From the IMG/VR virus record IMGVR_UViG_3300020731_000073, positions 1 to 26,598 of that record: 26,598 nt of DNA; one strand, written 5' to 3'. Position numbers and translations under genes: made by a program. How positions within the stretch are numbered: position 1 is the stretch's first letter; every line of letters begins with the position of its first letter. The notes under the pieces were generated by a model. It was not told where the DNA came from. It saw only the letters and a list, made by a program, of their open reading frames with translations, and made no database searches. The DNA comes from a virus. This document shows, in pieces, positions 14,019 to 26,598 of this stretch.

Positions 14019-17006
14019 TTAACGACCTAAAGAGCGTAATTGCCTGTGAAGTTCCTTAAATTGGTCATCAACATAGGTCTTGACTTCCCTGCCAACAGTC
14101 TTATCCATATTGCCGTGAACTTGGATGGTAAAAGCACCGGGGGCAATATGAACGACCGTTTCACCACGCCCAACGGCATTAGATGCACGCCCGTTTAGTG
14201 CTCGACCCGCCTGAACGCCCATAATGTGCACATTCAGCGCACCACCAGTAAAGGTCATCTTGTTGAGTTGGCCGATATTTGGGGTTGAGGGCTTGCTAGA
14301 GCCGCCACCACCAAACAGACCACCAAAGAATCCACCAATAGCACTAACCGCGCCACCGACTAAGTGGGCCGCGCCCTTAGCGATATTCGCAGCACCAGTG
14401 ACTAGGTGTTTGCCGACATTGAGAACAGCGTGACCAACGTGCGCGCTGAACTTGACATATGACTTGGCGACATCTTTTACGCCATTAAACAAGTGACCTG
14501 CTTCTTTGCTCGCCCACTTGCCGACATCTTTGGCCCCATTCCAAAGGTGATGTGCTGTGGTTGAGACAAAGTGGTTGATTTGTTTGTGCCACTTGATATA
14601 GGCCGCTGTCGCTGCAGCAACGGCTACGGAGACACCGAGAGTCTCTGGTCCGAGAGCCGCACCTGCTTCCATAGTTCCCGCAACTTCAGCACCAGTCGCC
14701 GCTTCGCCGCCCAGAGCCTCCGCACCACCGCCGCCAAACAGTCTGCCGACAAGGTTCTTACCCATAGAAACGAGGTTCTTCGCTTTACTAGCGAGGCCCC
14801 TGCCTTTCTTTAGGTCATCGATTAATGACTTGCCCTTTTTGACATCGTTCTCGACCGTCTTTAGGGGGTTGGAACTATTGCCCCCACCACCACCCATACC
14901 GCCTGACTGAATAGTGGAGATTAGGTTGTTGATTGCGTCAATTAGGTTGTTGGTAGCAGATAGTTGGTTATCGGCATTATCCGAGGCTTGACCAGCCCCA
15001 CTAACACCAAAGAGGTTGCCAGCAACGCCGAAGAAGCCCTTAAACAAGCCTTTCCAGCGGCCTTTCTTTGCCTCTTCACCAGCATCCTTAAAAAGAGTTT
15101 TGCCGAGATTGGAGTCAGCGATTTTCTCGAAGTATGAGGTTTTCTTCTTGAGTTCTTCTGCGCGCTTAGCCCAGTGAGCAGCCATAAATCCGCCGTGTTC
15201 GGCTTTCTGCTCATACGCCTTGATTTTCGCTGCGCGCTCAACTGCTGAAATGTCGGCTCGGTTGTTGAGCAAGCGACCCAAACGAGAACCGGCGGTCATT
15301 GGGTTGCCCTTGGCATCTGTCATTCCCCTATTTTGGAAGAACTGCTTAAAGAGCGAACCGGTCTTACGCAGTGTGCCACCAAGACTAAGAACCTTGCCCG
15401 ATAGAAGCGTGATGCTTTCCATAGCCATCTTGATTGGCGTGAGGAAGAGGTTTCGGGTGAACCAAGCGGCCGCCAAAATAGCAATCGCTTCGGTAAGACC
15501 CTTGTTCCCGGTAATCCAACCAATCAACTTGCTGATTGCGTTTATGATAATAAGAATTGCTGGCGTTAGTGCGACTAATAGTTTCGCCCAGATTTGGAGA
15601 ATCTTTACGAGTGCTGGCCCCGCAGCAATAAAGATAGGCGCTAGGGCAACCATTAGGTTTGCGACTGCTGTTGCTACGGCAGGAAGAATAGGCGCTAGCG
15701 TTGCGATTACCTTTACAAAACCCTGAAGCATCGCATTGAGTTGGCCGTTTTTCACCATTTTTGTAAAGGCATCGGCTATGGCTTTTACACCAACCATAAG
15801 GCTCTTGCTTACCGCTCCACCCATAGCATTAAAGATTCCGGCGAGGGTCTTCATATCTTTACTCGTTCCGATAATCTTATCCAAAGCCTTTGCCAATGGG
15901 GTGAAAATGTCGTTTGCTAACGTAAAGAACGGCGTAATCATTTGCAACAATACGGGAAGCAAGTTATTTACAAATAAGTCAACAAGAGGTTTAACCACTT
16001 GGAAGATAGTTCCAAGTTCGTTTCCCAATGAACCTAATACCGCCCCAAGAGCAGCACCCGCACTTTGGAAAAGTGGCATAAGTGCTGTCACTACGGTTCC
16101 GAGAGAAGTTGCTAGTGCCTTAAAGAACGGCAACAATCCCTGACCAATAGTTGTATAAATAATTTGGAAATCGTTTTTCAGCATCTCAATAGGCGAAGTT
16201 GCCACTTGAGCCGTGTTCTTAACGTGGTTGTTGATATCCACGAGAAGTTGTTGCTGGGCTGCGTAAAGACCATTGGTTGATTCCAAAGTCTTGATTCGCA
16301 TCTGTTCCGATTGCGACAGGGTGAATCCGTAGCGAGCCATAGCACTCATACGCTGCATCGGGTTCGCTAAAGTTCGGGTCAGCATACGAGCCGAAGAAGC
16401 AACCGAACCGCCGTGACCGCCACCCATTACCTCCGACAGGTTGATGGCGTCGGTAATCATAAGTTGCATATTTTGGCGAATGCCGTGTAGCGGTTGACCT
16501 GCCGCGCCTAAAGCACCTTTCACCGTTGGGCCGGTCGAAACCAACTTGGCGATATCGGTGTTAGTTAGAGCAAGAGTCTGCGCTTGGGTGATTTGCGCTC
16601 GGTTTACGCCCGTCTGAACAGAGAGGTAGTTTGATTGGTTGGCAAGCATTTTGGAATAGAACGCAGCACTCCAGTTGCCAGCAGCCTTTTGCTGGTCAAA
16701 TGTCTGCTTGGTCATACTTAGGTTGTATTGACTAGCAAGACCTTGGTTTGTTAAGAGGTTTGCTTGTACGGCCTGAACTTGCTCAAGTTGAGAAGCCGAA
16801 TCAACGGCTTTCTCAAACATTGTGCTAAGACCGATAATTCCAATCGTGCTTTTGATGAACTCACCGGCACGGCGGAACTCTTCTGTAATTTTTTCAGCAG
16901 CGACGTGCGCAGAATCCGTAGCCTGTGAAAGCGCGGTCTTCATAGAGGATGTGTCGGCTAAAAACCGTGCGCGGATGTCCATATTTCCGCCTTCGCCCAT
17001 ACTCAT
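14019..17006 (-). CDS. Tape measure protein
   Basis: This 995-residue protein sits right after the frameshifted tail chaperone, the standard place for the tape measure. It begins with an alpha-helical region (MDIRARFLADTSSMKTALSQ) typical of tape measures. Central hydrophobic segments are at about residues 285-345 and 440-520 (for example LVVALTPAILIIINAI-type runs), then come a charged helix (AKIKAYEQKAEHGG) and a Gly-rich zone. The C-terminal 60 residues end FKELHRQLRSLGR. At about 0.15 nm per residue it predicts a tail near 150 nm. The start at 17006 has a good GAGGTGA site 4 bases upstream; in-frame ATGs at 17000 and 16982 are possible alternatives. No clear peptidase or transglycosylase domain is seen. 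Confidence 0.9.
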   Translation of the reverse strand: MSMGEGGNMDIRARFLADTSSMKTALSQATDSAHVAAEKITEEFRRAGEFIKSTIGIIGLSTMFEKAVDSASQLEQVQAVQANLLTNQGLASQYNLSMTKQTFDQQKAAGNWSAAFYSKMLANQSNYLSVQTGVNRAQITQAQTLALTNTDIAKLVSTGPTVKGALGAAGQPLHGIRQNMQLMITDAINLSEVMGGGHGGSVASSARMLTRTLANPMQRMSAMARYGFTLSQSEQMRIKTLESTNGLYAAQQQLLVDINNHVKNTAQVATSPIEMLKNDFQIIYTTIGQGLLPFFKALATSLGTVVTALMPLFQSAGAALGAVLGSLGNELGTIFQVVKPLVDLFVNNLLPVLLQMITPFFTLANDIFTPLAKALDKIIGTSKDMKTLAGIFNAMGGAVSKSLMVGVKAIADAFTKMVKNGQLNAMLQGFVKVIATLAPILPAVATAVANLMVALAPIFIAAGPALVKILQIWAKLLVALTPAILIIINAISKLIGWITGNKGLTEAIAILAAAWFTRNLFLTPIKMAMESITLLSGKVLSLGGTLRKTGSLFKQFFQNRGMTDAKGNPMTAGSRLGRLLNNRADISAVERAAKIKAYEQKAEHGGFMAAHWAKRAEELKKKTSYFEKIADSNLGKTLFKDAGEEAKKGRWKGLFKGFFGVAGNLFGVSGAGQASDNADNQLSATNNLIDAINNLISTIQSGGMGGGGGNSSNPLKTVENDVKKGKSLIDDLKKGRGLASKAKNLVSMGKNLVGRLFGGGGAEALGGEAATGAEVAGTMEAGAALGPETLGVSVAVAAATAAYIKWHKQINHFVSTTAHHLWNGAKDVGKWASKEAGHLFNGVKDVAKSYVKFSAHVGHAVLNVGKHLVTGAANIAKGAAHLVGGAVSAIGGFFGGLFGGGGSSKPSTPNIGQLNKMTFTGGALNVHIMGVQAGRALNGRASNAVGRGETVVHIAPGAFTIQVHGNMDKTVGREVKTYVDDQFKELHRQLRSLGR

Positions 17007-17031
17007 CTACTCACCTCGCTTTCCAAACTAG

Positions 17032-17570
17032 TTATTGTGTTTTATCCATCGCCTCTTGCTGCTCGTGATTCCTGATTTGCCATACTGCCTGCCACTCAAC
17101 CAATTCCATTGCTGAAAGTGGTTTGTGGGCGGGAGAACCATCAAGAAGTTCGCCAACTGTTCTCCCCAACTTTTCCGCTAGTTCGTAGAGGAAACGTCGT
17201 TCTGGGTTGGCGAAGATTCTTTTCCCGCTGCCTCAACAGCATCATCGGTCATTCCTGAAAGTCGCATAGCCGCTTGAGCAATAACTTCAATAGGGCCTGA
17301 AGACTTAGCCATTACAGCCTCACGGTCCGAGTCCAAGAACACACGCTCGCCCGTTGTGGGGTCGTAGGTGCACTGAAGAACGAGGTCTGGGAGAATCTGC
17401 TGAATATTGAATTGTCCGTTTACGCTGGTAGCGATAGCGTTATCAATCATTAGAGCGCGTGACTTAGCCGAAAGCGACTTGACTAGAACCTCGACACCCC
17501 ATTGTGGGATGGCAACGAGTTCTGATTCAATATCGTCAGCGGCGAAAATCTTTGCTGATAGTTCTGACAT
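17032..17570 (-). CDS. Tail assembly chaperone, -1 frameshift product (G-T type)
   Basis: Reading the 130-residue chaperone frame to the slippery GGGAAAA at 17226-17220 and shifting -1 gives a 179-residue fusion: 117 codons before the slip and 62 after. The new tail begins RIFANPERRFLYELAEKLG and contains RTVGELLDGS and MELVEWQAVWQ. This is the usual signature of the T domain (LA-LG-TV-ELL followed by EL-EW). It stops at TAA 17034-17032, 25 bases before the tape measure start. In lambda-like systems the longer form bridges tape measure and tube subunits during tail assembly. The open -1 frame, the canonical heptamer and the position together make the recoding very likely. Its efficiency is unknown. 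Confidence 0.88.
17178..17570 (-). CDS. Tail assembly chaperone, unshifted form (G-like)
   Basis: This 130-residue protein has an AGGAGA ribosome site before ATG 17570. It begins MSELSAKIFAADDIESELV, has a central IPQWGVEVLVKSLSAKSRA and QQILPDLVLQCTYDPTTGERVF, and ends in a helix (VIAQAAMRLSGM) before the slip site. This matches tail chaperones of siphoviruses that lie between the tube gene and the tape measure. The zero-frame stop is TAG at 17180-17178, only 13 codons after the slippery heptamer. Most ribosomes would make this short form, which acts as the main chaperone in lambda-type tail assembly. Confidence 0.87.
   Translation of the reverse strand: MSELSAKIFAADDIESELVAIPQWGVEVLVKSLSAKSRALMIDNAIATSVNGQFNIQQILPDLVLQCTYDPTTGERVFLDSDREAVMAKSSGPIEVIAQAAMRLSGMTDDAVEAAGKESSPTQNDVSSTN
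17220..17226 (-). promoter_or_regulatory. Programmed -1 ribosomal frameshift slippery site GGGAAAA
   Basis: On the minus strand the zero-frame codons are GCG GGA AAA GAA, so G GGA AAA is in exact X-XXY-YYZ phase. Slipping -1 opens a 62-codon frame with a typical chaperone T domain. Lambda uses the closely related GGGAAAG at the same place. Confidence 0.88.
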
Positions 17571-17598
17571 CTGTAAATCTCCTAACTAGGGTTTATCC

Positions 17599-18330
17599 CT
17601 AGAGTGTAGTGCGGAATACAGGGCCAGTCACCTGTAATTCGCCATCAAATGTCACAACAGCACCAACGGCACTCTTGAGGTCATACTTGGTCAAAACGCC
17701 AGTTCCGTAGTACTTGGTGTCGCCAGTCAAACCGGTAAATCCACCGGGGGTTGCTGGGCCATAAACGAAGTTTCCGATACGGCCAGAGTCCTGCCAAGAA
17801 GAAAGACCGTTCATAATTGCGTCAATTCCACCTGCGTAGCCGGTGTTAACGGCAGTCTCGTCGAACATACCCGAAAAGGTAAGAGTCCAAGACTTCAGAC
17901 CAACGATAAAGGTCTTTACGCCATACTGCGAGAAAGTCGTGGTTTCAGCAGCCTCGATAGCGTATGGCAACGAGGCATCGTTGATGAACTCCGAGATGTT
18001 AATCATTGGAACCATTGGGGTAGCGACCGAAGTGGTAGCCACGTTGCCCGAAGAAACGGTCATTGAGGTTGTGCTTAGGGCCGTTCCGTAAACAGGAACA
18101 CCACCGAAGAACGCACCGTAAACCGAGTTTCCGGCCCCTGCGTAAGTCATTGGGTTGTTCTGCGTAAGCAACGAGCCAGTTCCAGCACCAGAGATGGTGA
18201 GGGAAGTGGTTGTGGTTGCCGTAGCGGTTGCTTGAACCAAAGAACCAGCAGTCAAACCGAGGTCATAACCGAGAGCAAGAAACGCATTCTTACCGTGCTG
18301 GAAAGTTGGAGTAGTTGTTGAAGTAGCCAT
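17599..18330 (-). CDS. Major tail tube protein, second paralog
   Basis: This 243-residue protein has an AGGAAAGGAA ribosome site before ATG 18330. It is clearly related to the upstream neighbour. Both start with a TTT-P/A-x-F-x-HGKN segment, both contain F-NDAS-x-x-YA-x-x-A-ETTTF (here FINDASLPYAIEAAETTTF), KTFI-GLK, and near the C-terminus KYDLKSAVGAVVTFDGEL against KFDIKSPVAGVVTNDMEL. An insert of about 70 residues after the N-terminal strand carries GGVPVYGTALSTTSMTVSS. Position just before the tail chaperone is the usual place of the tail tube gene. It lacks the C-terminal domain of the first copy, so it may be the main tube subunit. Confidence 0.8.
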   Translation of the reverse strand: MATSTTTPTFQHGKNAFLALGYDLGLTAGSLVQATATATTTTSLTISGAGTGSLLTQNNPMTYAGAGNSVYGAFFGGVPVYGTALSTTSMTVSSGNVATTSVATPMVPMINISEFINDASLPYAIEAAETTTFSQYGVKTFIVGLKSWTLTFSGMFDETAVNTGYAGGIDAIMNGLSSWQDSGRIGNFVYGPATPGGFTGLTGDTKYYGTGVLTKYDLKSAVGAVVTFDGELQVTGPVFRTTL

Positions 18331-18347
18331 TTTGGTCTATTCCTTTC

Positions 18348-19322
18348 CTAGTATCGGGCGAACCCGTAGTAAATTACTGCTGATGTGTTTGTTCCGCCAA
18401 TAGTCCACGCCAAGCGTGTGTATTGGTAGATTGTTCCGGTGAGCAAAGTCACCGAGCCGCCAGCACTTGAAAAAGTCGCAAGGTTGGCCCAAGTGGTGCC
18501 ATCCTGCGAGTGCTGAAATGCGAGCGAAATTGTTGGGTTCGTTCCTACGACCGTAGAAATACCCATAATCAAAGAGCCACCCTTAGTGGTAGAGGCTGTT
18601 CCTGAAGAAGCGGCTGGCGTTGAGGTGTAAGCCGTGCTATTTCCCGTAGTTGATACAACGAGGTATTGGCCGTTTCCGCGCCAAACTCCGCCATCGGCCT
18701 GAAGTTCCATATCGTTTGTGACAACGCCCGCGACTGGTGATTTGATGTCAAACTTCGTAGTCACGCCGTTCGCCATAAGGCAACGCTCGTTGTCGGTCGT
18801 GCCACCAGCGGGGAATACGAGAACTGACTTGTCTCCTGCCGTTGAGGTCGCACCGTGAATGATTGCGCTGGTTCCGCCGATAGTGCCATCGTGGAAGCCA
18901 GACAAGGTGATTGTGCCGTCTTTGAGGCCGGGAATAAAGGTCTTTGAGCCACCCTGTAAGAAAGTCGTTGTTTCTTCGGCTGCTACGGCGTAGGTCACGC
19001 TCGCATCGTTAAAGAATGGTGAAAGGTCGAAGCCCGCACCCGTGCTTGAGAGGGTCACAGACACGCCAGAAGCCGTTGCGGTGGCCGCTGCTGACAGAGT
19101 AATGTTCTGCCCCTGTATAGCCGTAATAGTCGCCCCAGAGGGGATTCCAGAGCCGCTAACGGACTGTCCGAGTGAGGCTGGCCCGATAACGGTCGTGGAA
19201 ACGATAACGGCACTGCCGTTGGTCGTGTTGGCCGTAATAACAGCAGAAGAGAACAATGGGTTCACGAAAAGAACTCGTGTGTTCTTACCGTGTAGGAAGT
19301 TAGGGGCGGTAGTGGTAGCCAT
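18348..19322 (-). CDS. Major tail tube protein, first paralog with extra C-terminal domain
   Basis: This 324-residue protein overlaps the stop of the small upstream gene through TAATG. The tube core is residues 1-20 and about 97-225 (FFNDASVTYAVAAEETTTF, KTFIPGLKDGTITLSGF, KFDIKSPVAGVV). Residues about 30-93 are an inserted beta module with GSGIPSGATITAIQGQNITL. Residues about 225-324 form a separate C-terminal domain, ending SLAFQHSQDGTTWANL and SAVIYYGFARY, of the beta-sandwich type that often projects from tail tubes. Two tube paralogs side by side suggest either a mixed tube or one tube plus one decorated or terminal ring. Tube identity is well supported; the division of labour is not known. 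Confidence 0.8.
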   Translation of the reverse strand: MATTTAPNFLHGKNTRVLFVNPLFSSAVITANTTNGSAVIVSTTVIGPASLGQSVSGSGIPSGATITAIQGQNITLSAAATATASGVSVTLSSTGAGFDLSPFFNDASVTYAVAAEETTTFLQGGSKTFIPGLKDGTITLSGFHDGTIGGTSAIIHGATSTAGDKSVLVFPAGGTTDNERCLMANGVTTKFDIKSPVAGVVTNDMELQADGGVWRGNGQYLVVSTTGNSTAYTSTPAASSGTASTTKGGSLIMGISTVVGTNPTISLAFQHSQDGTTWANLATFSSAGGSVTLLTGTIYQYTRLAWTIGGTNTSAVIYYGFARY

Positions 19323-19510
19323 TAGTTGTCGCTCGTTTCAGCATCTACTTTGGAAGCCGAGGCTGACACAATAAACCCATCGGCTAGAAGCCAAGAAATG
19401 CTCTCGCCGGGAAGGTCCGTGACCGTATCACCGGGATTGGCAGTCTTGCCGAGATACGACAAAGGAGACTGGTCAGTGACGACATACGCCACAGTATTTG
19501 ACTTAGCCAT
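19322..19510 (-). CDS. Small conserved-type protein upstream of tube genes
   Basis: I choose ATG 19510 because AGGAAAGG lies 4 bases upstream, giving 62 residues; the frame extends to 19543 without a better start. The protein reads MAKSNTVAYVVTDQSPLSYL and then PGDTVTDLPGESISWLLADGFI. The pattern of PGD-V-LP-x-S-x-x-WLL-x-DG-I is common in small proteins found next to actinophage head-tail genes, where a polypeptide of this size often precedes the tube gene. No enzymatic motif is visible. It overlaps the tube gene by one base (TAATG), so the two are probably translationally coupled. Function unknown; a tail assembly or head-tail role is a guess from position. Confidence 0.72.
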   Translation of the reverse strand: MAKSNTVAYVVTDQSPLSYLGKTANPGDTVTDLPGESISWLLADGFIVSASASKVDAETSDN

Positions 19511-19568
19511 AGTGCCTTTCCTAGTGAGGTTGCCTTGCGACAAATCGTATCACCACGTTTGGAAAAAC

Positions 19569-19841
19569 CTATTTGTCGTTTTCCTCTGCGACTTTGGGCT
19601 TTCTGGCTCTTTTGGCTGGTGGCTTGCTCACCCGATTGGGGTAGAAAGAGCGATTCGTCTTCCTGCCGTTTGGCCCGCCGTAAACATTGACAGCGATAAT
19701 CTCGCCATCTCGCTCGTGTGCTGAAATAAAGATGAAGTCGCCGCGCTCGTTGGAAACACGGATGGGGTCGTCTTTTCCAAACCCATTCCACTCGGAGAGT
19801 TCAATCCACGAGGGGGTGTGTTGAGGCGTAGGCGTTTTCAT
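19569..19841 (-). CDS. Small basic hypothetical protein
   Basis: This 90-residue protein has ATG 19841 with GAGG upstream. The central part looks like a small beta barrel: SWIELSEWNGFGKDDPIRVS, GDFIFISAHERDG, IIAVNVYGG, followed by RSFYPNRV. The last 20 residues are strongly basic (KPPAKRARKPK) and end in an acidic EEND. Similar short proteins with a W...G...F..F, VYGG and SF.P.RV pattern occur between neck and tube genes in actinophages. I do not assign a family name. The basic tail suggests contact with nucleic acid or an acidic partner, but this is inference. Confidence 0.68.
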   Translation of the reverse strand: MKTPTPQHTPSWIELSEWNGFGKDDPIRVSNERGDFIFISAHERDGEIIAVNVYGGPNGRKTNRSFYPNRVSKPPAKRARKPKVAEENDK

Positions 19842-19863
19842 AACGGCCTCTAATTTAGCCTAT

Positions 19864-20124
19864 TTATTGGAGTCTCTGCTGAAAACCGCAGTGGCAAATT
19901 AGATACCGACCCTGAATGGTGGCGGCTTCTACTGCTTCGGAGTGGTCACAACCACCCTCGCTGGTTTCGGTTGTTTCAGTTGCGGGTTCTGGCTGGTTTG
20001 GAAAGCCGTTGGAGAATCCCAACAGCCGCTCGACTGTTTCTAGCGCGCGGATAGATGCGACATTGGCGGCTTTGGCTGCTGAAATAGCGGCTTGAATCGC
20101 ATCGAGTTCGGGGTTATTGGACAT
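19864..20124 (-). CDS. Small protein with C-terminal Cys/His (zinc-ribbon-like) motif
   Basis: The start is ATG 20124, inside the 3' end of the tail terminator gene; a TTG three codons upstream is less likely. The 86 residues comprise an alpha-helical, Ala-rich N-terminus (IQAAISAAKAANVASIRALE), an acidic Glu/Thr linker, and a C-terminal segment with C-D-H near residue 60 and C-H-C near residue 78 (YLICHCGFQQRLQ). CxH plus CxC spacing by about 16 residues could bind one zinc ion. The gene lies in the neck-to-tube interval. I know no specific family; a virion or assembly role is inferred only from position. Confidence 0.66.
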   Translation of the reverse strand: MSNNPELDAIQAAISAAKAANVASIRALETVERLLGFSNGFPNQPEPATETTETSEGGCDHSEAVEAATIQGRYLICHCGFQQRLQ

Positions 20125-20542
20125 TGGCCTCAAAGTTTATTGTGAACTTGGGTCGGTTGCCATCATCATACGGCATTGGGCTAATCGTTCCAAGCGGGGC
20201 CATACGAAGAATATGGATTCCATCTATGACCTGTGTGCCAACTATTGAGGCTAGAGCCGTGCGAATGGTGTCAGCCCAAGCGTAGGTGTCTGGGTAATCT
20301 TCTGGCTCGCCACGAATCAGCAGTTGGATTTTGAGGTTGTCAATCGCAATCGCTTCTATCCCCATAGTGAGGCTCGGCGCACGACCGGGATAGGGCTGAA
20401 CCAGAACGGAAGCGTTAGGTGCTTCGGCTGGTAGGCGACCTAGAAAGAGATTCTGTCCGAGAACGAGTCCGTATGAACCGTATTTGGCAACGGTGATGTT
20501 GTTGACTAGATATTGGGCTAGTGCGTCAAGAATATTAGCCAT
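20114..20542 (-). CDS. Tail terminator protein
   Basis: ATG 20542 (MANILDALAQYLVNN) gives 142 residues and overlaps the end of the tail completion gene by 8 bases. The frame runs on to 20587 but those codons lie wholly inside the upstream gene. Features match phage minor capsid/tail terminator proteins: a helix at the N-terminus, then a strand region SVLVQPYPGRAP, KIQLLIRGEPEDYPDTYAWADTIRTAL (RG-P-D-Y-x-A), LASIVG, and a final strand with PKFTINFEANVQ. Such proteins form the ring that stops tube growth and joins the neck. The order adaptor, stopper, completion, terminator, tube is classical for siphoviruses. Confidence 0.83.
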   Translation of the reverse strand: MANILDALAQYLVNNITVAKYGSYGLVLGQNLFLGRLPAEAPNASVLVQPYPGRAPSLTMGIEAIAIDNLKIQLLIRGEPEDYPDTYAWADTIRTALASIVGTQVIDGIHILRMAPLGTISPMPYDDGNRPKFTINFEANVQ

Positions 20543-20957
20543 TAGTACCAAATCCACTCGTGTCGGATGCTGAAAAAACCTTACCACCGTAAAGCACAGC
20601 GTTCACTCGGTCAATAATTCCCTGTCGAAGTTCTGGTAGCCGCTCATCCATTGGTTGCTCTATGTATTTGGCTTGACCCCCGTTGGGGTGATTGAGTTGT
20701 AGGTCTTCGTGAATGTAGAGCGCGTAGGGGGCGTCGTAGGTGATAGCCACTTCTGGGAATCCCTTGCCGCTAATGATGTCTATGTGTCCGCTAGCCTGCA
20801 GATTTCCAGTATCCACCGGCACAAGATTCTGACTGTCGTTAAACACATTGTCGCCGTATTCCTTTAGAGCATCAAGCACGGCGAGGTTTATGTAGTCGGC
20901 TTTCTTGGCGATTGCCTCTATGTCGGCCTTATTAAAAGTGACTTGGTAGGAAATCAT
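20535..20957 (-). CDS. Tail completion / HK97 gp10-like protein
   Basis: This 140-residue protein has ATG 20957, with AGGTG six bases upstream. The TGCTGAAAT word overlaps the start codon. The HK97 gp10-like signature is clear: an N-terminal helix (AVLDALKEYGDNVFNDSQ), VPVDTGNLQASGHI at about residues 47-60, a strand EVAITYDAPYALYIHE at about 69-84, then GGQAKYIEQPMDERLPEL. In this family the VPVDTG-L motif and Y-x-x-HE are the hallmarks. The protein acts at the head-tail joint, completing the neck before tail attachment. It overlaps the terminator gene by 8 bases. Confidence 0.87.
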   Translation of the reverse strand: MISYQVTFNKADIEAIAKKADYINLAVLDALKEYGDNVFNDSQNLVPVDTGNLQASGHIDIISGKGFPEVAITYDAPYALYIHEDLQLNHPNGGQAKYIEQPMDERLPELRQGIIDRVNAVLYGGKVFSASDTSGFGTNG

Positions 20958-20965
20958 TTCAGCAC

Positions 20966-21391
20966 CTACTCAAAGTGGAGAGTCGTGTTGTATCCGTTTA
21001 GGCCGTTCTCGTCATAGTTGTTTTCCACATACATAATGATTGGGTGCTTGAGAATTGGCTGGGTCTGGTTTGGAACTGTGACTCGGCTTTCTGTGGTGAT
21101 ATTTGGGTAGAAGCCAGTTAGGTAGGCTCGACCCGAACTGTATCGGTCACGACCATCCATAGAGGGCATCACCTTAATCTCGTATTCCAAACGACAATTG
21201 TAAGCGACCGATGGGCCGTATTCCACCGTGCTATCGCTAGTTCCGTCTGTGCCTACATAGTGGCGACCATAGCCGTCTAAAACCACAGTTCCCTGACTGC
21301 CTTGGTTTGGAATAATATTCTCAACCAGAATCGTCTGGGTCATCAAAGCAACTAGGTCTGGGTCAATCCCAAAAGACGAAATATCGCTCAT
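20966..21391 (-). CDS. Head-tail stopper / head closure protein
   Basis: This 141-residue protein starts at an ATG overlapping the TAA of the adaptor gene (TAATG). It opens MSDISSFGIDPDLVALMTQT, has strands around TILVENI and GTVVLDGYGRHYVG, a central CRLEYEIKVMPSMDGRDRY, and a C-terminal HPIIMYVENNYDENG. Position between adaptor and gp10-like protein is that of the head closure or stopper protein, a small beta barrel. Sequence conservation in this family is low, so the call depends mainly on gene order, size and the beta pattern. Confidence 0.72.
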   Translation of the reverse strand: MSDISSFGIDPDLVALMTQTILVENIIPNQGSQGTVVLDGYGRHYVGTDGTSDSTVEYGPSVAYNCRLEYEIKVMPSMDGRDRYSSGRAYLTGFYPNITTESRVTVPNQTQPILKHPIIMYVENNYDENGLNGYNTTLHFE

Positions 21392-21912
21392 TAGCCGATG
21401 TCTTCCTGAACGACCTCAACAATGGTTTCTTGGATTTCACCAGCGATATCAAGAGGGTCATAGTTGCCAACGCCATAAGTCGAGGTGACACCCGTGACAG
21501 AGTTGGTCGGCCAAGCGTTCGGCTCGGCGTAGTAGGGGTCCATAAAGCCAACCTTGAGTTCCGCACCGAGGGCGCGTGGGTCGGCGTTCGCTGATGGTGG
21601 GGCAACTCGGCGTGAACGGATAAGCAAGTCTTTCGCCAAGCGCTCGTAGCGTTGGGCTCGGTCGCCAAGTGATTTGCTGATAGACAGACCACCGACGCTC
21701 TTGCTCTCACTTTGGGCTGCGCCAGTGAAGAAAGCCGCAAGGTTAAAGCAAGTATTAGAAGCGGCTCGGTATGGCTCGTTGTTGACCTCGCCTAAGTTAA
21801 AGTAGATTTCTTCGTCTTGAACGATTTGGTTGTCAATGTTCGTATCGCCAATGAGGTAGCGAACCGTGTCTTTTGGTGATGAGCCGGGGTTTGCGGAATA
21901 AGTCCAAGACAT
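21391..21912 (-). CDS. Head-tail adaptor (connector) protein
   Basis: This 173-residue protein has AAAGGA upstream of ATG 21912. The N-terminus MSWTYSANPGSSPKDTVRYL followed by IGDTN and QDEEIYFNLGE is the well-known adaptor pattern (SP-D-VR-LIGDT, then L-DEEI). The helical core follows with AASNTCFNLAAFF, VGGLSISKSLGDRAQRYERL and a basic LLIRSRRV. About 45 C-terminal residues extend the family core and end acidic (EIQETIVEVVQEDIG). The protein forms the ring under the portal. Neighbouring genes continue the neck in the normal order. Confidence 0.88.
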   Translation of the reverse strand: MSWTYSANPGSSPKDTVRYLIGDTNIDNQIVQDEEIYFNLGEVNNEPYRAASNTCFNLAAFFTGAAQSESKSVGGLSISKSLGDRAQRYERLAKDLLIRSRRVAPPSANADPRALGAELKVGFMDPYYAEPNAWPTNSVTGVTSTYGVGNYDPLDIAGEIQETIVEVVQEDIG

Positions 21913-21921
21913 AGTTATCCT

Positions 21922-22263
21922 TTACATTTGGGCGAAGTCAAACTTGATTGACCCCGTGAGAATACGCTGCGCCCCGCTAGAAGTCTGCGTTGCGGTGATT
22001 TGGAAATACCAACGACCAGAGGTGAGGTTGACCAACTCGTTGTCAGCCCATACAACCACTAGGTTTGATGAGCCATTAGTGCTGGTCAGGCCGTAAAAAC
22101 CGCTAGTTTTCGTGACCTGAACTGGGTTTGGTGGCTGGGCGATTTTCATCACAAAAGTCCAACCTGTGCTGAAATCAAGGGGTGTGCCACTCGAATCCAA
22201 CCAGAGAAAGTTAGCGTTCGGCAGTGAAGCGGCGGGCGTTGGGTATTCCAAAGTGTCGGGCAT
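21922..22263 (-). CDS. Small beta-sandwich virion protein, BppU-N-like
   Basis: This 113-residue protein is coupled to the repeat gene by TAATG. It reads as a single beta sandwich: ANFLWLDSSGTPLDFSTGWT, TFVMKIAQPPNP, TNGSSNLVVVWADNEL, GRWYFQITAT, QRILTGSIKFDFAQM. The pattern (strand with D-S-G-T-P-x-D-F-S, F-x-x-K-I, W-x-x-x-E-L, G-x-W/Y-x-F-x-I) resembles the N-terminal domain of baseplate and fibre attachment proteins such as BppU. It could serve as a docking domain or a head or neck decoration. The similarity is by eye; the exact role is unknown. It is the first gene between the accessory block and the neck. Confidence 0.65.
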   Translation of the reverse strand: MPDTLEYPTPAASLPNANFLWLDSSGTPLDFSTGWTFVMKIAQPPNPVQVTKTSGFYGLTSTNGSSNLVVVWADNELVNLTSGRWYFQITATQTSSGAQRILTGSIKFDFAQM

Positions 22264-23510
22264 TAGGGGTTATTCCATTTCCTCTCGGTAAACAAGGATA
22301 CGTCGTCCTCTTGGAAAGTCGCATTGGCCGAAGATTCCTCAATGACTGCTTGGCCGTGTTCTTGGCTAGTCACGCTATTTACCTCTTGGTCAATAAAGGT
22401 GTTGTAGTAATCCTTAAAGATAATTGGCGAGCCAATAATTAGCGGTACGAGAACTTTTATCGCAACTGTGAATTGCTTGAGTGAGTTATTACCCAACTCG
22501 GTAATTGCGCGCGACCGCACATCTTCAGCAGCGAGTCGTAAGGCCGCCGAAGCCGCAGCGAGGCGAGTTTGGAACTTGACACTCGAAGTCTTTTGCGTTA
22601 GGTTGGCCGAGCCAGACTCCGTGCGAGCCTGTGACCTTGTGGAAGATAGGGCTTGCTTTTCAGCAGAAGAACCAGAACGAATAATCGCCCTAGCCGCCGT
22701 TCCGACAGTAGCCATAATCGTTGCGTTGTAGGCGAGTTTGGAAATAGCGCGCTTGGTAATAGAGGTGGAGACTTGCGTGAGGGATACGGCAGAGGTCGAT
22801 GCTTTGCCCTGCGACTTGGTGGAACTAACGGCTTCCTTTTGGGAAGTAGAGCCAGACCTAATAAGTGTCTTGTTTGGCACGGCAATTTGGGTTAGGATTT
22901 CAGCAGTTGAGGCGAGTTTGGAAACCCCTCGAGCGCGCAAGGAAGTAGTTGCCTGAACGAGCGAGATAGAAGAAATCCCAAAAAGACCAGAAGATTTGGA
23001 AGAAGTAGACTTTTCGACCAGAGCCGTAGCCCCAGCATCCGAGCGGGTTTGCGACCGACTAGAGGATTGGCTCTCTATTTCAGCAGCCGAAGCAGAACGA
23101 ATCTTTCCTTGACTCTTGACCCCATCCGTGATGAAGTAGGTGGCTTCCAAACCAGTTTTATTGGTGGATTTGCTAGAAGCACTCCTTTGTGCCAATAGGA
23201 GACTAGCGACTTGCTCTTTGTAGAGGTTTTGGGATTTGGAAGATACCGCCGAAAAAGTAGCCAGAACCGAACTTGTTGGGTTATTGGCTGTGACCTTAAA
23301 TTGGGTTTGGAAAGCGTAAAGTGCAACCGAACTAATCGGGTTATTGGCAGTCGTCTTGGTATCAACGGTCTGGTCGAGTGCTGAAACGATACCTACTACG
23401 GAATAGACCTTGCCGATAGCACCATTGGCGTAAAGGCCACTAAAGGCCGTATCACCACCGCCGTTGTAGAGAGTTGAGAAGGCTCCGTAAGTCTGGGTAG
23501 TGACGGGCAT
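22263..23510 (-). CDS. 20-residue tandem repeat virion protein
   Basis: This 415-residue protein has an AAGGGG ribosome site before ATG 23510. Residues 1-50 are unique (MPVTTQTYGAFSTLYNGGGD). From about 51 to 350 the sequence falls into 15 consecutive blocks of exactly 20 residues with no gaps, for example TKSQGKASTSAVSLTQVSTS (231-250) and TRSQARTESGSANLTQKTSS (291-310). Residues 191-250 and 251-310 form a 60-residue higher-order repeat at about 40% identity. TANNP-SSV also recurs exactly 20 residues apart (near 55 and 75). Composition is rich in Ser, Ala and Lys/Arg. The C-terminus (351-415) is different and acidic. A beta-solenoid or fibre is likely. I recognise no family; position suggests a virion protein. 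Confidence 0.8.
   Translation of the reverse strand: MPVTTQTYGAFSTLYNGGGDTAFSGLYANGAIGKVYSVVGIVSALDQTVDTKTTANNPISSVALYAFQTQFKVTANNPTSSVLATFSAVSSKSQNLYKEQVASLLLAQRSASSKSTNKTGLEATYFITDGVKSQGKIRSASAAEIESQSSSRSQTRSDAGATALVEKSTSSKSSGLFGISSISLVQATTSLRARGVSKLASTAEILTQIAVPNKTLIRSGSTSQKEAVSSTKSQGKASTSAVSLTQVSTSITKRAISKLAYNATIMATVGTAARAIIRSGSSAEKQALSSTRSQARTESGSANLTQKTSSVKFQTRLAAASAALRLAAEDVRSRAITELGNNSLKQFTVAIKVLVPLIIGSPIIFKDYYNTFIDQEVNSVTSQEHGQAVIEESSANATFQEDDVSLFTERKWNNP
22413..23360 (-). repeat. 60-bp coding tandem repeats with 180-bp higher-order copies
   Basis: The region encodes about 15 units of 20 residues. The DNA is diverged, but some words recur at repeat spacing. TTTGGAAA occurs at 22737 and 22917, 180 bases apart, and TTTCAGCA at 22898 and 23078, also 180 apart. 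GGCGAGTTTGGAA occurs three times (about 22562, 22731, 22911), the first in a different reading frame from the other two. Confidence 0.75.
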
Positions 23511-23528
23511 AGCCCCTTACCTACCTGA

Positions 23529-24224
23529 CTAGTTGCTCATCAACCAAGTAGGTGTGACTGTCAGGGTGTCGTTTACGGCTAGAACTGGCGTTGAGGCATC
23601 AGCAAAGTTGGCGGCGTAAAGGAGTTTTCCTGAAGTTCCACTAGCAACTGTCGTGATGAAGTAGCCGGTTGAAGCAGTTGACCAAGCACCTGTGGCGGGG
23701 CCGAAAGTCACGGCAGTAGCGACAGTCTTCTGACCGCTTACGGCATCACCAATCTTGATAACCGCCGAAGTCGTTGCCGTTGCGGGGGCGTTCAGAACGA
23801 TTTGCGAAGAACCGGGGAGTGCGGTGATTACGAACAGGGAAGCCGCACCAGAACCCTGTGCGCCACCAGTAGCACCAGCGATGTCAATGCTCATACCTAC
23901 GGCGAGGCTTGCGTAAGTGCCGGTGGTGAAAGAGCCGACAGCAATCAAGTTGGAAGAAGTGACCGAACCGTTGAGGGTAGAAGCAGCAAAGGGTGTTGAC
24001 CAGATAGTTGAGAGGGCTGGTGCGCCGAACGAAACAGCCTTGCGAGCATAGCCAGAGCCAGTCTGCTCATACCAAGCCGAGCCAACTGCTGAAAGAGTCG
24101 TGGTGGCCGCTGGGATAGTTCCCGTAAAGAGGCCGATATAAAGCGAAGAGTAAGTCGTTGGGCTTGAGGTGATGACCTGATTCAGTAGGACATCAAGACC
24201 TTCGTTGATAAATACCTGTGCCAT
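23529..24224 (-). CDS. Virion protein with split beta fold and inserted module
   Basis: This 231-residue protein has AGGAG just upstream of ATG 24224, inside a possible hairpin. N-terminal MAQVFINEGLDVLLNQVI is followed by SSLYIGLFTGTIP, WYEQTGSGYARKAVSFGAPA, and later AVTFGPATGAWSTASTGYFI and GKLLYAANFADASTPVLAVN. The pattern of YIGLF-TG, SGYAR-x-x-V-x-F, V-TFG-ATG-W and G-LLY is known to me from short phage fibre- or decoration-type virion proteins, though I give no family name. Between the halves (about residues 88-160) lies an inserted Gly/Ala-rich beta module related to those in the tube and tip proteins. Its place in the accessory block suggests surface decoration or fibre attachment. 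Confidence 0.7.
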   Translation of the reverse strand: MAQVFINEGLDVLLNQVITSSPTTYSSLYIGLFTGTIPAATTTLSAVGSAWYEQTGSGYARKAVSFGAPALSTIWSTPFAASTLNGSVTSSNLIAVGSFTTGTYASLAVGMSIDIAGATGGAQGSGAASLFVITALPGSSQIVLNAPATATTSAVIKIGDAVSGQKTVATAVTFGPATGAWSTASTGYFITTVASGTSGKLLYAANFADASTPVLAVNDTLTVTPTWLMSN

Positions 24225-24256
24225 AGAGACTCCTAAAAGGGGTTTTCGCTGTCTCT
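24225..24256 (-). promoter_or_regulatory. Inverted repeat enclosing the ribosome binding site of the 231-residue virion gene
   Basis: In minus-strand order the leader is AGAGAC, AGCG, AAAA, CCCC, TTTT, AGGA, GTCTCT, then ATG. AGAGAC pairs with GTCTCT (6 bp) and AAAA with TTTT (4 bp) around a CCCC loop. The Shine-Dalgarno AGGAG falls in the internal loop and the outer stem ends at the start codon. Such a fold could limit translation. Confidence 0.5.
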
Positions 24257-24263
24257 ATCTTGC

Positions 24264-24291
24264 CACAAGATTTGGAAAATCTAGACTTGTG
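24264..24291 (-). other. Nested inverted repeats over the glycosyltransferase stop codon
   Basis: CACAAG (24264-24269) and CTTGTG (24286-24291) are complementary. Inside, AGATTT (24268-24273) and AAATCT (24277-24282) flank GGA, which includes a TTTGGAA copy. The repeats span the TAG of the upstream gene. No U-run follows, so a classical terminator is unlikely; a processing or mRNA-stability hairpin or a protein site is possible. Confidence 0.4.
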
Positions 24292-25525
24292 CGCCTCGCC
24301 ACCCGCCAAAGCGTTCTTCGCCCTTGACTGCTATGAGATTTGCTAGCACATAGGAGATATTGTGCTTCTGGTGAAACTCCGATGGGAAGTAGGTTAGGAG
24401 TCGGCTAGTTTGGAAGTCCATCTTGAGTTCTGGCACGAATCGGCGGAAGTTCTCGTCTATGAAATACCAAAACGAGTTTTCGTTGTAGAACGAATTGTGG
24501 GTCGGGTCTTGGAAAGCACCCCTACCGTCAGTCGAGGGCGTAATGCTCAAAACCATACCCCCATCAGCCAAAACACGATACATTTCGTTCCAAAGACCAA
24601 TCTTGTCTGGTATGTGCTCGAGGAAATCAGCAGCCCGAATAACGCCCACCGAGTTGTCTGGCATACTTGCCAAAACATCAAAGATATCGCCAACGATATC
24701 GGCATCGTGTAGGTCAACAGTTTGGAAGCCGGGCTTGGGATTGTGTGCTCCGCCCAAATCTAGAGCGCGTAAATGGTTGTCTCCGGCCCATTTCAGCAAA
24801 AGGTCGGAGATATAAATGTTGTACAACTCCAAAGTTCCGGCTTGGATTTTGGGGTTGATTTGGGGGTCGGCCTGTGTCTGATTCGCGTGGATACGCTGTA
24901 GATACAAGTTCTCCTTTATGTGGTGGAACTTGGTCTGTAGGTAGAGGCGACACATAAGGTCTTGGTCATCAAGGATTTCCAAACCGGGGTTGTACCCATT
25001 AGCCGAGTCGTATGCCTTACGAGTAAAGGCTCGTAGGTGATTTGGGGCGAACCAGATAAGGGAGATGTGGTGGGGGTGTGGAGATTTGGAATTGGTTATG
25101 TGGTATCCGTCTTCATCACGATACGACCATCCAAACCGAGAATCAAACTCGTTAAAGTTTGGAGTTCCGTCTTCGTTGATTTGGGCGAAATCCGAATAAA
25201 CAAAGCCAACTTCGGGGTTTTCAGCAAACGCCTTGGCAACTTTTTCCAAAGTAGTCGGCATCAACAGGTCATCGTGGTCTAGTTCCAAGAGGATTTCACC
25301 ACTACAGAGCGATACGGCTTCTGCCTTGAGTGCACCTACGGCCTTAGTCTCAACCTTTGACTGAACGATTTTTACGCGCTCGTCTGGTTTGGGCGCTTCC
25401 CACTCTGCGCCGTTATTCAGCAGAACTACCCATTCCCAATCCTCATACGATTGTGTTATGAGGCTTTCATAGGTTTCGTTGAGCCACTTTGGGTTGTGGC
25501 TGGGTGTGAATACTGAAATGGTCAT
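24281..25525 (-). CDS. Family 2-like glycosyltransferase fused to SAM methyltransferase
   Basis: I choose ATG 25525 (MTISVFTPSHNPKWLNETYE), 414 residues; a GTG three codons earlier is possible. Residues 1-235 form a GT-A glycosyltransferase: a typical first strand and Asn/Pro loop, the nucleotide-sugar/metal site ELDHDD (81-86) and a catalytic-base-like LDDQDL (185-190). Residues 250-400 form a class I methyltransferase: motif I ALDLGG (254-259), VDLHDAD (270-276), and DFLEHI (300-305) followed by EMYRVLADGG. The two activities would add a sugar and methylate it, or act on related steps. Actinophages are known to glycosylate capsid and tail proteins with glycosyltransferases encoded near structural genes, so virion proteins are the likely acceptors. 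Substrate and sugar are unknown. Confidence 0.87.
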   Translation of the reverse strand: MTISVFTPSHNPKWLNETYESLITQSYEDWEWVVLLNNGAEWEAPKPDERVKIVQSKVETKAVGALKAEAVSLCSGEILLELDHDDLLMPTTLEKVAKAFAENPEVGFVYSDFAQINEDGTPNFNEFDSRFGWSYRDEDGYHITNSKSPHPHHISLIWFAPNHLRAFTRKAYDSANGYNPGLEILDDQDLMCRLYLQTKFHHIKENLYLQRIHANQTQADPQINPKIQAGTLELYNIYISDLLLKWAGDNHLRALDLGGAHNPKPGFQTVDLHDADIVGDIFDVLASMPDNSVGVIRAADFLEHIPDKIGLWNEMYRVLADGGMVLSITPSTDGRGAFQDPTHNSFYNENSFWYFIDENFRRFVPELKMDFQTSRLLTYFPSEFHQKHNISYVLANLIAVKGEERFGGWRGAQV

Positions 25526-25542
25526 AAAGACCACTCTAGCAA

Positions 25543-26598
25543 CTAGCCAAGTGGGATAACTGTTATTTCAACGTTTTGAATGGTTCCACTGACGGAACCA
25601 CCAATTGAGGCTAATCCTTGAAATGCGTAAGTAGTGCTAGTGCTTCGCCCAGTAAACAAGTGCTGAATGGTTATTGTTGCGGTCTGAGCGTTTACGGTGT
25701 AATGGCTATAGGTGTTTGAATAAGTTGCAGAGCCATCCCAAATACGCATTTGAATGTTGTGACCCGTAGTGTCGCTGTTCGTCGCTTGCATTGTGAACAT
25801 CACTAAATAAGTTGTGTAGCCAGAAACGTTTGTAGCGGTGGCGACGGTGTTGTTAGGCAAACCAGATGTCAGAACACTTGAGTTTCCAATGGTTGTGCTG
25901 TTTCCGGGTGTTCCAAATAATGAAACTAAAGCAAGTTGCGCCGTTGTTCCGCTCGTTCCGCCAGCAGCAACCGGCAAAGTTCCTGCGGTTAGGGCAGATG
26001 TTGAGGTGGAATAAATGGCTCGGTTGGCAGCACCAAAAGTTGTGAGGTTCGTTCCGCCGTTAGCCGTTGGCAAAGTTCCCGTGACACCCGTGGTGAGTGG
26101 CAAACCCGTCACGTTCGTCATTGTTCCTGACGCTGGTGTTCCTAGTGCTGGCGTGACCAGCGTTGGCGAGTTGGCGAGAACTACGTTTCCCGTTCCTGTA
26201 GATGAGGTCAAAGTTGGTGATTGCGCCTGTGTTCCTGTTCCCGTTGAGGTCACGAACTGTGGCGTGGTAGTCGTATTACCAGCAAGTAATCCTACGGCAC
26301 TTGTTCCGCTACCGTAGAGTAAGGCGTTAGCGGTGATGGTATTCAGACCTGTTCCGCCGTTAGAAGTTGGCAGAGTTCCCGATACCCCAGTAGTTAGGGA
26401 GACATTGGTGATTGTGTTGTTCGCACCAGAAATTGTTTTGTTGCTTAGAGTGGCAACAATCGTATTAGTGACTAGGGTATCCGAGGTCGTAGTTGATGCC
26501 GGGAATAAGAAAGTCTGGTTGTTTGAGCCACCGTTAAAGTTCAGGTAGGCGTTCTGCCCACTATTGTTGCTATCCAAAATTGTTAGTGGAACATTGGG
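25543..26598 (-). CDS. Tail-fibre-like repeat protein (5' end outside window)
   Basis: The frame is open to the right edge; upstream of the TTG at 26577 it reads PNVPLTI with no stop, so the gene is truncated. About 350 residues are visible. It contains paired modules typical of phage fibres: GVSGTLPTSNGGTGL and GVTGTLPTANGGTNL, encoded about 300 bases apart, plus TPALGTPASGTMTNVTGLPL between them. The last 130 residues lack these repeats and look like a beta-sandwich tip (YTTYLVMFTMQATNSD, HNIQMRIWDGSATYSN, QNVEITVIPLG). Such proteins are elongated and end in a receptor-binding or trimer-forming domain. Its place upstream of the neck genes, away from the tail tip, is less usual. Confidence 0.75.
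   Translation of the reverse strand, partial: PNVPLTILDSNNSGQNAYLNFNGGSNNQTFLFPASTTTSDTLVTNTIVATLSNKTISGANNTITNVSLTTGVSGTLPTSNGGTGLNTITANALLYGSGTSAVGLLAGNTTTTPQFVTSTGTGTQAQSPTLTSSTGTGNVVLANSPTLVTPALGTPASGTMTNVTGLPLTTGVTGTLPTANGGTNLTTFGAANRAIYSTSTSALTAGTLPVAAGGTSGTTAQLALVSLFGTPGNSTTIGNSSVLTSGLPNNTVATATNVSGYTTYLVMFTMQATNSDTTGHNIQMRIWDGSATYSNTYSHYTVNAQTATITIQHLFTGRSTSTTYAFQGLASIGGSVSGTIQNVEITVIPLG

Follow-up and report, generated by a model that had tools for sequence, protein, structure and literature searches.

A glycosyltransferase-methyltransferase fusion linked to collagen-like genes in phages and actinobacteria is a candidate for decorating a phage fibre

Several enzymes that place sugars on collagen-like proteins or on viral surface proteins have been described. 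The C. difficile glycosyltransferase SgtA, whose gene lies directly upstream of bclA3, is reported to add beta-O-linked N-acetylglucosamine (beta-O-GlcNAc) to threonines of the BclA3 collagen repeats in vitro (PMC7157674). The chlorovirus PBCV-1 protein A064R joins glycosyltransferase domains to a class I methyltransferase and reportedly adds and 2-O-methylates a rhamnose of the capsid glycan, and the Mimivirus protein L230 is described as a virus-encoded bifunctional enzyme that acts on viral collagen-like proteins (both PMC9614988). BclA of the Bacillus exosporium is a collagen-like spore surface protein (PMC8968730) whose rhamnose glycan bears a 2-O-methylated sugar (PMC6222408), and virion glycosylation has been reported for mycobacteriophages (Freeman et al. 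2023, as cited in PMC13313380). Here we analyse the whole of the IMG/VR virus record IMGVR_UViG_3300020731_000073 (26,598 bases of a lake phage, hereafter the window) and in particular one of its genes, which encodes a glycosyltransferase-methyltransferase fusion that we call GT-MT. We infer, with moderate confidence, that GT-MT glycosylates the phage's collagen-like fibre, the product of the upstream gene, and O-methylates the sugar, its activity, donor and acceptor residue all being putative.

GT-MT resembles SgtA in layout, as both are GT-A enzymes whose genes adjoin a collagen-like gene. SgtA differs in having a TPR tail, in having no methyltransferase described, and in acting on a spore protein rather than a virion; in GT-MT the glycosyltransferase is not followed by TPR units, and the C-terminal half is the methyltransferase. 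With A064R it shares the union of a GT-A domain and a methyltransferase in one virus-encoded chain, and A064R is a proven virus enzyme of GT-MT's general make. A064R nevertheless has two glycosyltransferase domains, the first likened to GT34, and its acceptor is the N-glycan of a capsid protein and not collagen, whereas GT-MT consists of one glycosyltransferase and one methyltransferase instead of three domains. Domain 1 of A064R was not among the structural matches listed for GT-MT, the two not having been compared directly. L230 is different again, being a lysyl hydroxylase joined to a glycosyltransferase that places glucose on hydroxylysine, with no methyltransferase. The BclA system offers a collagen-like surface protein with a rhamnose glycan and a methylated sugar, but on Bacillus spores, and the mycobacteriophage system, as cited, is alike in being glycosylation of a phage virion. 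Within the titles and opening lines of abstracts of the open-licence literature, a scope outside which most subscription papers fall, we found no description of a glycosyltransferase-methyltransferase associated with genes for collagen-like proteins, whether in actinobacteria or in phages.

The tail and connector genes of the window lie on its minus strand, as does GT-MT. The earlier note on this DNA, made from the letters alone (aa stands for amino acids below), had placed the gene correctly at 24281-25525, starting from the ATG at 25525 (414 aa), although it left the strand unstated; the open reading frame (ORF) extends over 24281-25534 if a GTG at 25534 is used, giving 417 amino acids, and our residue numbers refer to this longer reading (P0001). 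That note had also described a single polypeptide in which a GT-A glycosyltransferase is joined to a class I methyltransferase, and had pointed out ELDHDD (residues 84-89), ALDLGG and DFLEHI; all of this is borne out by the protein, its Pfam matches and an AlphaFold2 model. Glycos_transf_2 (PF00535) covers residues 7-125 (E 1.6e-10, 41.6 bits, cut-off 23.3) and Methyltransf_11 (PF08241) covers residues 280-329 (E 2.7e-5, 25.2 bits, cut-off 21.2). The structure prediction of both domains that the note had called for is confident, with a mean predicted local distance difference test score (pLDDT) of 94.6 and a predicted template modelling score (pTM) of 0.92, and contains a GT-A fold (Foldseek E 1.4e-14) and a class I methyltransferase fold. 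The best structural match of the glycosyltransferase half is a chondroitin polymerase (2z86_B; Z 24.4, with 224 residues aligned at a root-mean-square deviation (rmsd) of 2.5), and its next matches include RmlT, a rhamnosyltransferase of Listeria, as well as SpsA of Bacillus. Whole-model Foldseek and VIA-align rows gave glycosyltransferase chains, and the methyltransferase half was therefore folded (pLDDT 95.3) and compared separately. Its best match is 3dli_A (Z 14.1 over 143 residues, rmsd 2.9), and the sugar C3-methyltransferases KijD1 and TcaB9 match at Z about 13, though many class I enzymes score within 1-3 Z of the best. The enzyme is probably soluble, because its most hydrophobic 19 residues average just 1.29, with no stretch resembling a membrane helix. 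Among its motifs, listed in Table 1, LDDQD is presumably the expected catalytic-base motif of family-2 glycosyltransferases.

The evidence that carries our proposal is the company that GT-MT keeps. One genome each for 84,980 species yielded 98 relatives among 146 pattern matches, and the best 80 of these 98, to which all counts over 80 loci refer, are all actinobacterial by title and 46-57% identical to the phage protein. Runs of at least 12 Gly-X-Y triplets lie near GT-MT in 74 of the 80 loci, against none of 40 control regions (each 17,233 bases long and taken from fixed positions in nine of the same genomes; none at 10 or more triplets, two at 8 or more) and none of 40 loci of other family-2 glycosyltransferases (chosen from 110 matches in five of the genomes; two at 10 or more, seven at 8 or more). 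Both contrasts give a Fisher's p of about 8e-26, a value to be taken with caution as the loci are not independent. We relied on protein-level counts and two control sets because the DNA pattern for repeats with a third-position glutamine (GxQ) is unspecific in GC-rich Streptomyces, its reversed control being as frequent in several genomes. The runs are found in 39 of the 42 Streptomycetaceae loci and in 35 of the remaining 38. Since the nearest run takes four arrangements across many families (downstream on the other strand in 37 loci, upstream on the same strand in 28, downstream on the same strand in 7, upstream on the other strand in 2), the collagen link has persisted or been re-formed in varying layouts and is not one frozen operon. 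Two bacterial neighbours, examined over their full length, are collagen-repeat proteins in which a hydrophobic segment precedes the repeats (Pfam Collagen 4.7e-17 and 2.6e-19).

The same bacterial loci hint at the sugar. Genes for RmlB, RmlC and RmlA, which we take to be dTDP-rhamnose genes, having named them from their sequences without a profile, lie near GT-MT in 18, 21 and 23 of the 80 loci and in none of 40 controls, the queries having been drawn from one of the GT-MT loci. A collagen-like run of at least 7 triplets sits between RmlB and RmlC in 16 of the 17 loci that have both. Outside the actinobacteria, the nearest relative on a plasmid is a glycosyltransferase of Peribacillus (Bacillaceae), 34% identical over 57% of the query and without a methyltransferase match, whose gene neighbours encode a collagen triple-helix protein and an exosporium protein related to BclB; the search of Bacillaceae for the fusion covered plasmids only.

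In the window itself there is no Gly-X-Y run of 5 or more triplets, and the earlier note's reader could not have seen the repeats, as only the C-terminus of the upstream fibre, 17 bases from GT-MT, falls inside it. Further context comes from contig L224, which is 99.84% identical to window positions 15492-26598 (11,107 bases) and continues further upstream. There, the gene directly upstream of GT-MT encodes at least 1058 aa and runs off the end of the contig. Its product contains 85 Gly-X-Y triplets, G-x-Q for the most part, and is recognised by Pfam Collagen at 2e-36. The GxQ DNA pattern occurs in 17 of 22 contigs with GT-MT (15 of the 15 that are at least 39 kb long, 2 of the 7 shorter ones) and in Synechococcus phage S-CRM01, and was found in none of nine sister contigs without GT-MT and none of seven T4-like contigs, all of which lack the fusion (one has a weak match to the glycosyltransferase only). 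When the anchored loci are limited to those with 5.4 kb or more of upstream sequence, a collagen-like run is present in 8 of 8 loci with GT-MT (six lineages), versus 6 of 14 without it (one of six lineages), with Fisher's p 0.018 by locus and 0.015 by lineage, the lineages having been delimited by eye. The sister lineage without GT-MT that does have such a run (L249, L251-L255) encodes a fibre of 1401-1404 aa whose collagen repeats are short, of the GAT/GPT type and free of GxQ. In S-CRM01, whose host is Synechococcus sp. LC16, two genes of the virion block (g20 and g23) bear the annotation collagen triple helix repeat. What the data show is a protein of two domains with intact motifs and a genetic link between GT-MT and genes for collagen-like proteins on the bacterial as well as the phage side; comparison points to one kind of partner, the collagen-like repeat proteins, in both. 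The type of enzyme is ordinary; its partner is what differs from the earlier note's proposal.

This partner bears on where the sugar is expected to go. The earlier note had pointed to several virion proteins as rich in serine and threonine, and their Ser+Thr content is as claimed, at 27.9% for the 1195-aa protein, 23.4% for the 2216-aa protein, and 27.5% and 25.1% for two tube paralogs. These paralogs are distinct major tail tube proteins of 243 and 324 aa, encoded in tandem at 17599-19322 and both assigned to PHROG major tail protein families. From this richness, and from the position of GT-MT within the virion gene block, it could be argued that the enzyme glycosylates virion proteins in general, thereby shielding the surface, and virion glycosylation in other actinobacteriophages, as cited in PMC13313380, lends this some plausibility. 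We compared 42 sister loci that share a 173-aa connector, some with GT-MT and some without. Ser+Thr content with versus without the gene is 25.8 vs 25.0% and 24.8 vs 23.0% in the major tail proteins and 29.8 vs 28.6% in the 231-aa protein downstream of GT-MT, and the connector is likewise about equally rich. The group without the gene includes short contigs that may be truncated carriers (L226, L230, L241, L248, L250, L258) and others that lack the upstream part, but the picture is the same when only lineages demonstrably without GT-MT are counted, with the two tube proteins at about 25 and 22%. Serine and threonine richness is evidently a trait of this virion type and uninformative on the enzyme, and we reject it as a sign of acceptors. 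The 1195-aa and 2216-aa proteins lie outside this comparison, yet bacterial relatives of GT-MT adjoin collagen-like genes instead, and we consider glycosylation of the virion at large unlikely. What survives of the earlier note's idea is its general form, a phage-encoded enzyme putting a methylated sugar on a virion protein, which is still the best on offer even though the reason given for it fails.

An action outside the virion is also to be weighed. The top sequence and fold matches of the glycosyltransferase half are polysaccharide or teichoic-acid enzymes, and PMC10202952 proposes cell-wall modification for the glycosyltransferases of freshwater actinophages, so that GT-MT might alter a host surface polysaccharide and, for example, exclude other phages. 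Such a role would leave the steady collagen linkage unaccounted for, given that 40 loci holding other family-2 glycosyltransferases in these genomes do not show it, and GT-MT lacks a membrane-like segment; we regard it as improbable. The same source offers DNA protection as an alternative, by which GT-MT would glycosylate or methylate bases of the phage genome. The fold and sequence matches are family-2 glycosyltransferases of polysaccharides and proteins, however, and the bacterial relatives adjoin collagen genes, which makes a DNA substrate very improbable indeed. A different question is whether the second half of the phage protein works as a methyltransferase at all. In a 68-row alignment, the motif I that binds S-adenosylmethionine (SAM) is degenerate in 11 bacterial rows (the GT-MT genes of L092, L094, L095, L097-L099, L101-L103, L105 and L106). 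These 11 relatives, without motif I or DFxEH, largely keep the block TPSTDGRGAFQDPTH..NENSFWY, which for that reason probably serves the acceptor rather than SAM, and they are likely pseudo-methyltransferases with a conserved surface. Ten of their 11 loci have collagen-like runs (the exception is L101), in keeping with a role of the block that does not involve SAM. By extension, the half could be an inactive, acceptor-binding module for collagen-like chains in the phage too, but the protein of the window and every viral row retain an intact motif I, DFLEHI and the acidic residue that follows the second strand, and we think it unlikely that the phage enzyme does not methylate.

Our preferred reading, decoration of the collagen-like fibre, has its own difficulties. 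Linkage is not activity, and the rows behind the linkage are not independent, as Streptomycetaceae supply 42 of the 80 bacterial loci and the 22 phage contigs include several near-copies. Six of the 80 bacterial loci lack a run of 12 triplets (L028, L049, L050, L056, L093, L101), some of them ending at contig edges. Phage lineages number 43, of which 11 have a run within the flanking sequence available, 11 have none despite at least 5 kb on both flanks, and 21 have short flanks, although some of the 11 without a run carry GxQ repeats elsewhere on the contig; in S-CRM01, about 50 kb separate GT-MT from the two collagen genes. The loss of motif I in 11 bacterial relatives means that methylation is not universal to the function of the family. 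Lastly, 22 of the 106 repeat-bearing loci, all bacterial, have almost no serine or threonine in their repeats (below 0.1 per triplet), and a simple O-link to the repeat therefore cannot hold everywhere. We thus reject the simple rule that threonine or serine in the repeat is the acceptor, while these residues are common in the phage repeats, at 0.66 per triplet in the phage of the window. Glutamine fills the third (Y) position in 57% of bacterial and 70% of phage triplets, and we considered it as the modified residue; since it drops to 13-26% in some bacterial loci, the tracking of GxQ with GT-MT may be only a repeat preference.

With these points in mind, the fibre reading can be laid out as follows. 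The GT-A domain would take a sugar from a nucleotide-sugar donor and place it on the collagen-like region of the phage's own fibre, or on a sugar already present there, the first sugar on the chain coming from SgtA-like or host enzymes or from GT-MT itself. The fused methyltransferase would then O-methylate the added sugar using SAM, and both reactions would take place in the cytoplasm, before virion assembly; the attachment residue and this order of reactions are presumptive. The donor may be dTDP-rhamnose or another 6-deoxyhexose, as the Streptomyces clusters suggest. None of the 99 loci with phage copies of GT-MT yielded an Rml gene nearby, and the phage would therefore draw its donor from the host pool. 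The benefit to the phage could be a stiffer or protected fibre, or masking of its surface.

Some phages carry further candidate enzymes at the same loci. Two tandem genes for a family-2 glycosyltransferase with TPR units, which share the SgtA layout, lie between the collagen-like fibre and GT-MT at L005:3783-5989, and the arrangement is also seen in L110 and L023/L146. Relatives of the L005 genes occur in L013/L129, and the tandem genes have weak matches to the peptide S-glycosyltransferase SunS. In two phage lineages (11 loci: L242:2976-4051, L021:1004-2085, and L020, L022, L118, L120, L141-L143, L244 and L262), a sulfotransferase-like gene directly followed by an adenosine 5'-phosphosulfate (APS) kinase gene stands near GT-MT and collagen-like or fibre genes. 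Sulfotransfer_2 scores 23.4 bits in L242 (cut-off 22), and the L021 counterpart has no Pfam match. Sulfation of the same fibres by this pair is possible. A broader and more tentative extension, which we consider less likely than not, is that GT-MT is the shared core of a collagen-decoration system: it would serve the secreted collagen-like proteins of actinobacteria, phage fibres would receive the same methylated sugar and so imitate the host coat, and phages would add exchangeable extras (the SgtA-like glycosyltransferase with TPR units; the sulfotransferase and APS kinase) to produce varied sulfated and methylated glyco-collagen fibres.

The fusion constitutes an old family. A first scan of IMG/VR confirmed 24 relatives among 25 pattern matches, at 60-100% identity and all with the fusion, and because all 24 match over nearly the full length, GT-MT is evidently neither a chance ORF nor an assembly fusion. 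A second, alignment-based scan had 307 pattern matches and confirmed 206 of them; we retained the best 80 of those confirmed. Among 50,697 phage records there were 11 matches, and just two cover 80% of the protein, both from S-CRM01 and 40% identical. Of 20 actinobacterial genomes searched whole, 19 have one copy and one has two. A quick tree of 69 rows places the window in a viral clade of 9 rows (support 98), nested in viral clades of 21 (99) and 31 rows (93). Five further viral rows fall among bacterial rows, and for that reason it is probable that the gene has passed between phage and host, or else that some of those five contigs are proviral.

The features of the locus are collected in Table 1. 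The earlier note had described GT-MT as flanked by fibre and decoration genes. On the upstream side this holds, as the flanking gene is the C-terminal part of the collagen-like fibre gene; downstream, the 231-aa protein matches the podophage fibre model Gp80 only at 22.6 bits (cut-off 27), and a decoration role is unsupported. Promoter-like and terminator-like sites near GT-MT are no more numerous than in shuffled sequence, and direct repeats near it lie mostly within the fibre gene. Elsewhere in the window, a mechanically called ORF at 19384-19791 (23% Lys+Arg) overlaps one at 19569-19841 with a weak match to DUF7246, and the latter is probably the real gene.

Table 1. Features of the GT-MT locus in the window (residue numbers as in the 417-aa reading; conservation over aligned relatives)
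Feature	Position	Strand	Details
C-terminal part of collagen-like fibre gene	25543..26598	-	cut by window end; Gly-X-Y repeats off window
GT-MT gene (glycosyltransferase-methyltransferase fusion)	24281..25525	-	414 aa from ATG at 25525
GT-A glycosyltransferase domain	24794..25525	-	residues 4-247; Pfam PF00535 and structural match 2z86_B
DHDD, DxD-type metal/nucleotide-sugar motif	25268..25279	-	residues 86-89; identical in 68/68 aligned relatives
LDDQD	24959..24973	-	residues 188-192; D189 and D190 in 68/68, D or E at 192 in 68/68
Class I SAM-dependent methyltransferase domain	24323..24778	-	residues 253-404; Pfam PF08241 and structural match 3dli_A
LDLGGAHN, SAM-binding motif I	24740..24763	-	residues 258-265
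DFLEHI	24611..24628	-	residues 303-308
DPTH	24497..24508	-	residues 343-346, within block TPSTDGRGAFQDPTH..NENSFWYF
231-aa Ser/Thr-rich protein, possible fibre component	23529..24224	-	downstream; sub-threshold Pfam Gp80

Glycosylated collagen-like proteins have so far been known from a few spore formers and giant viruses. If the fibre reading is correct, the post-translational decoration of bacterial and phage collagens would be a general process that extends across many actinobacteria and unrelated tailed phages, and the linkage of GT-MT supplies testable candidates for the enzyme, its partner and the sugar donor. The fibre reading would, moreover, put a testable idea about fibres in place of the usual suggestions of DNA protection or wall modification that PMC10202952 makes for the glycosyltransferases of freshwater actinophages.
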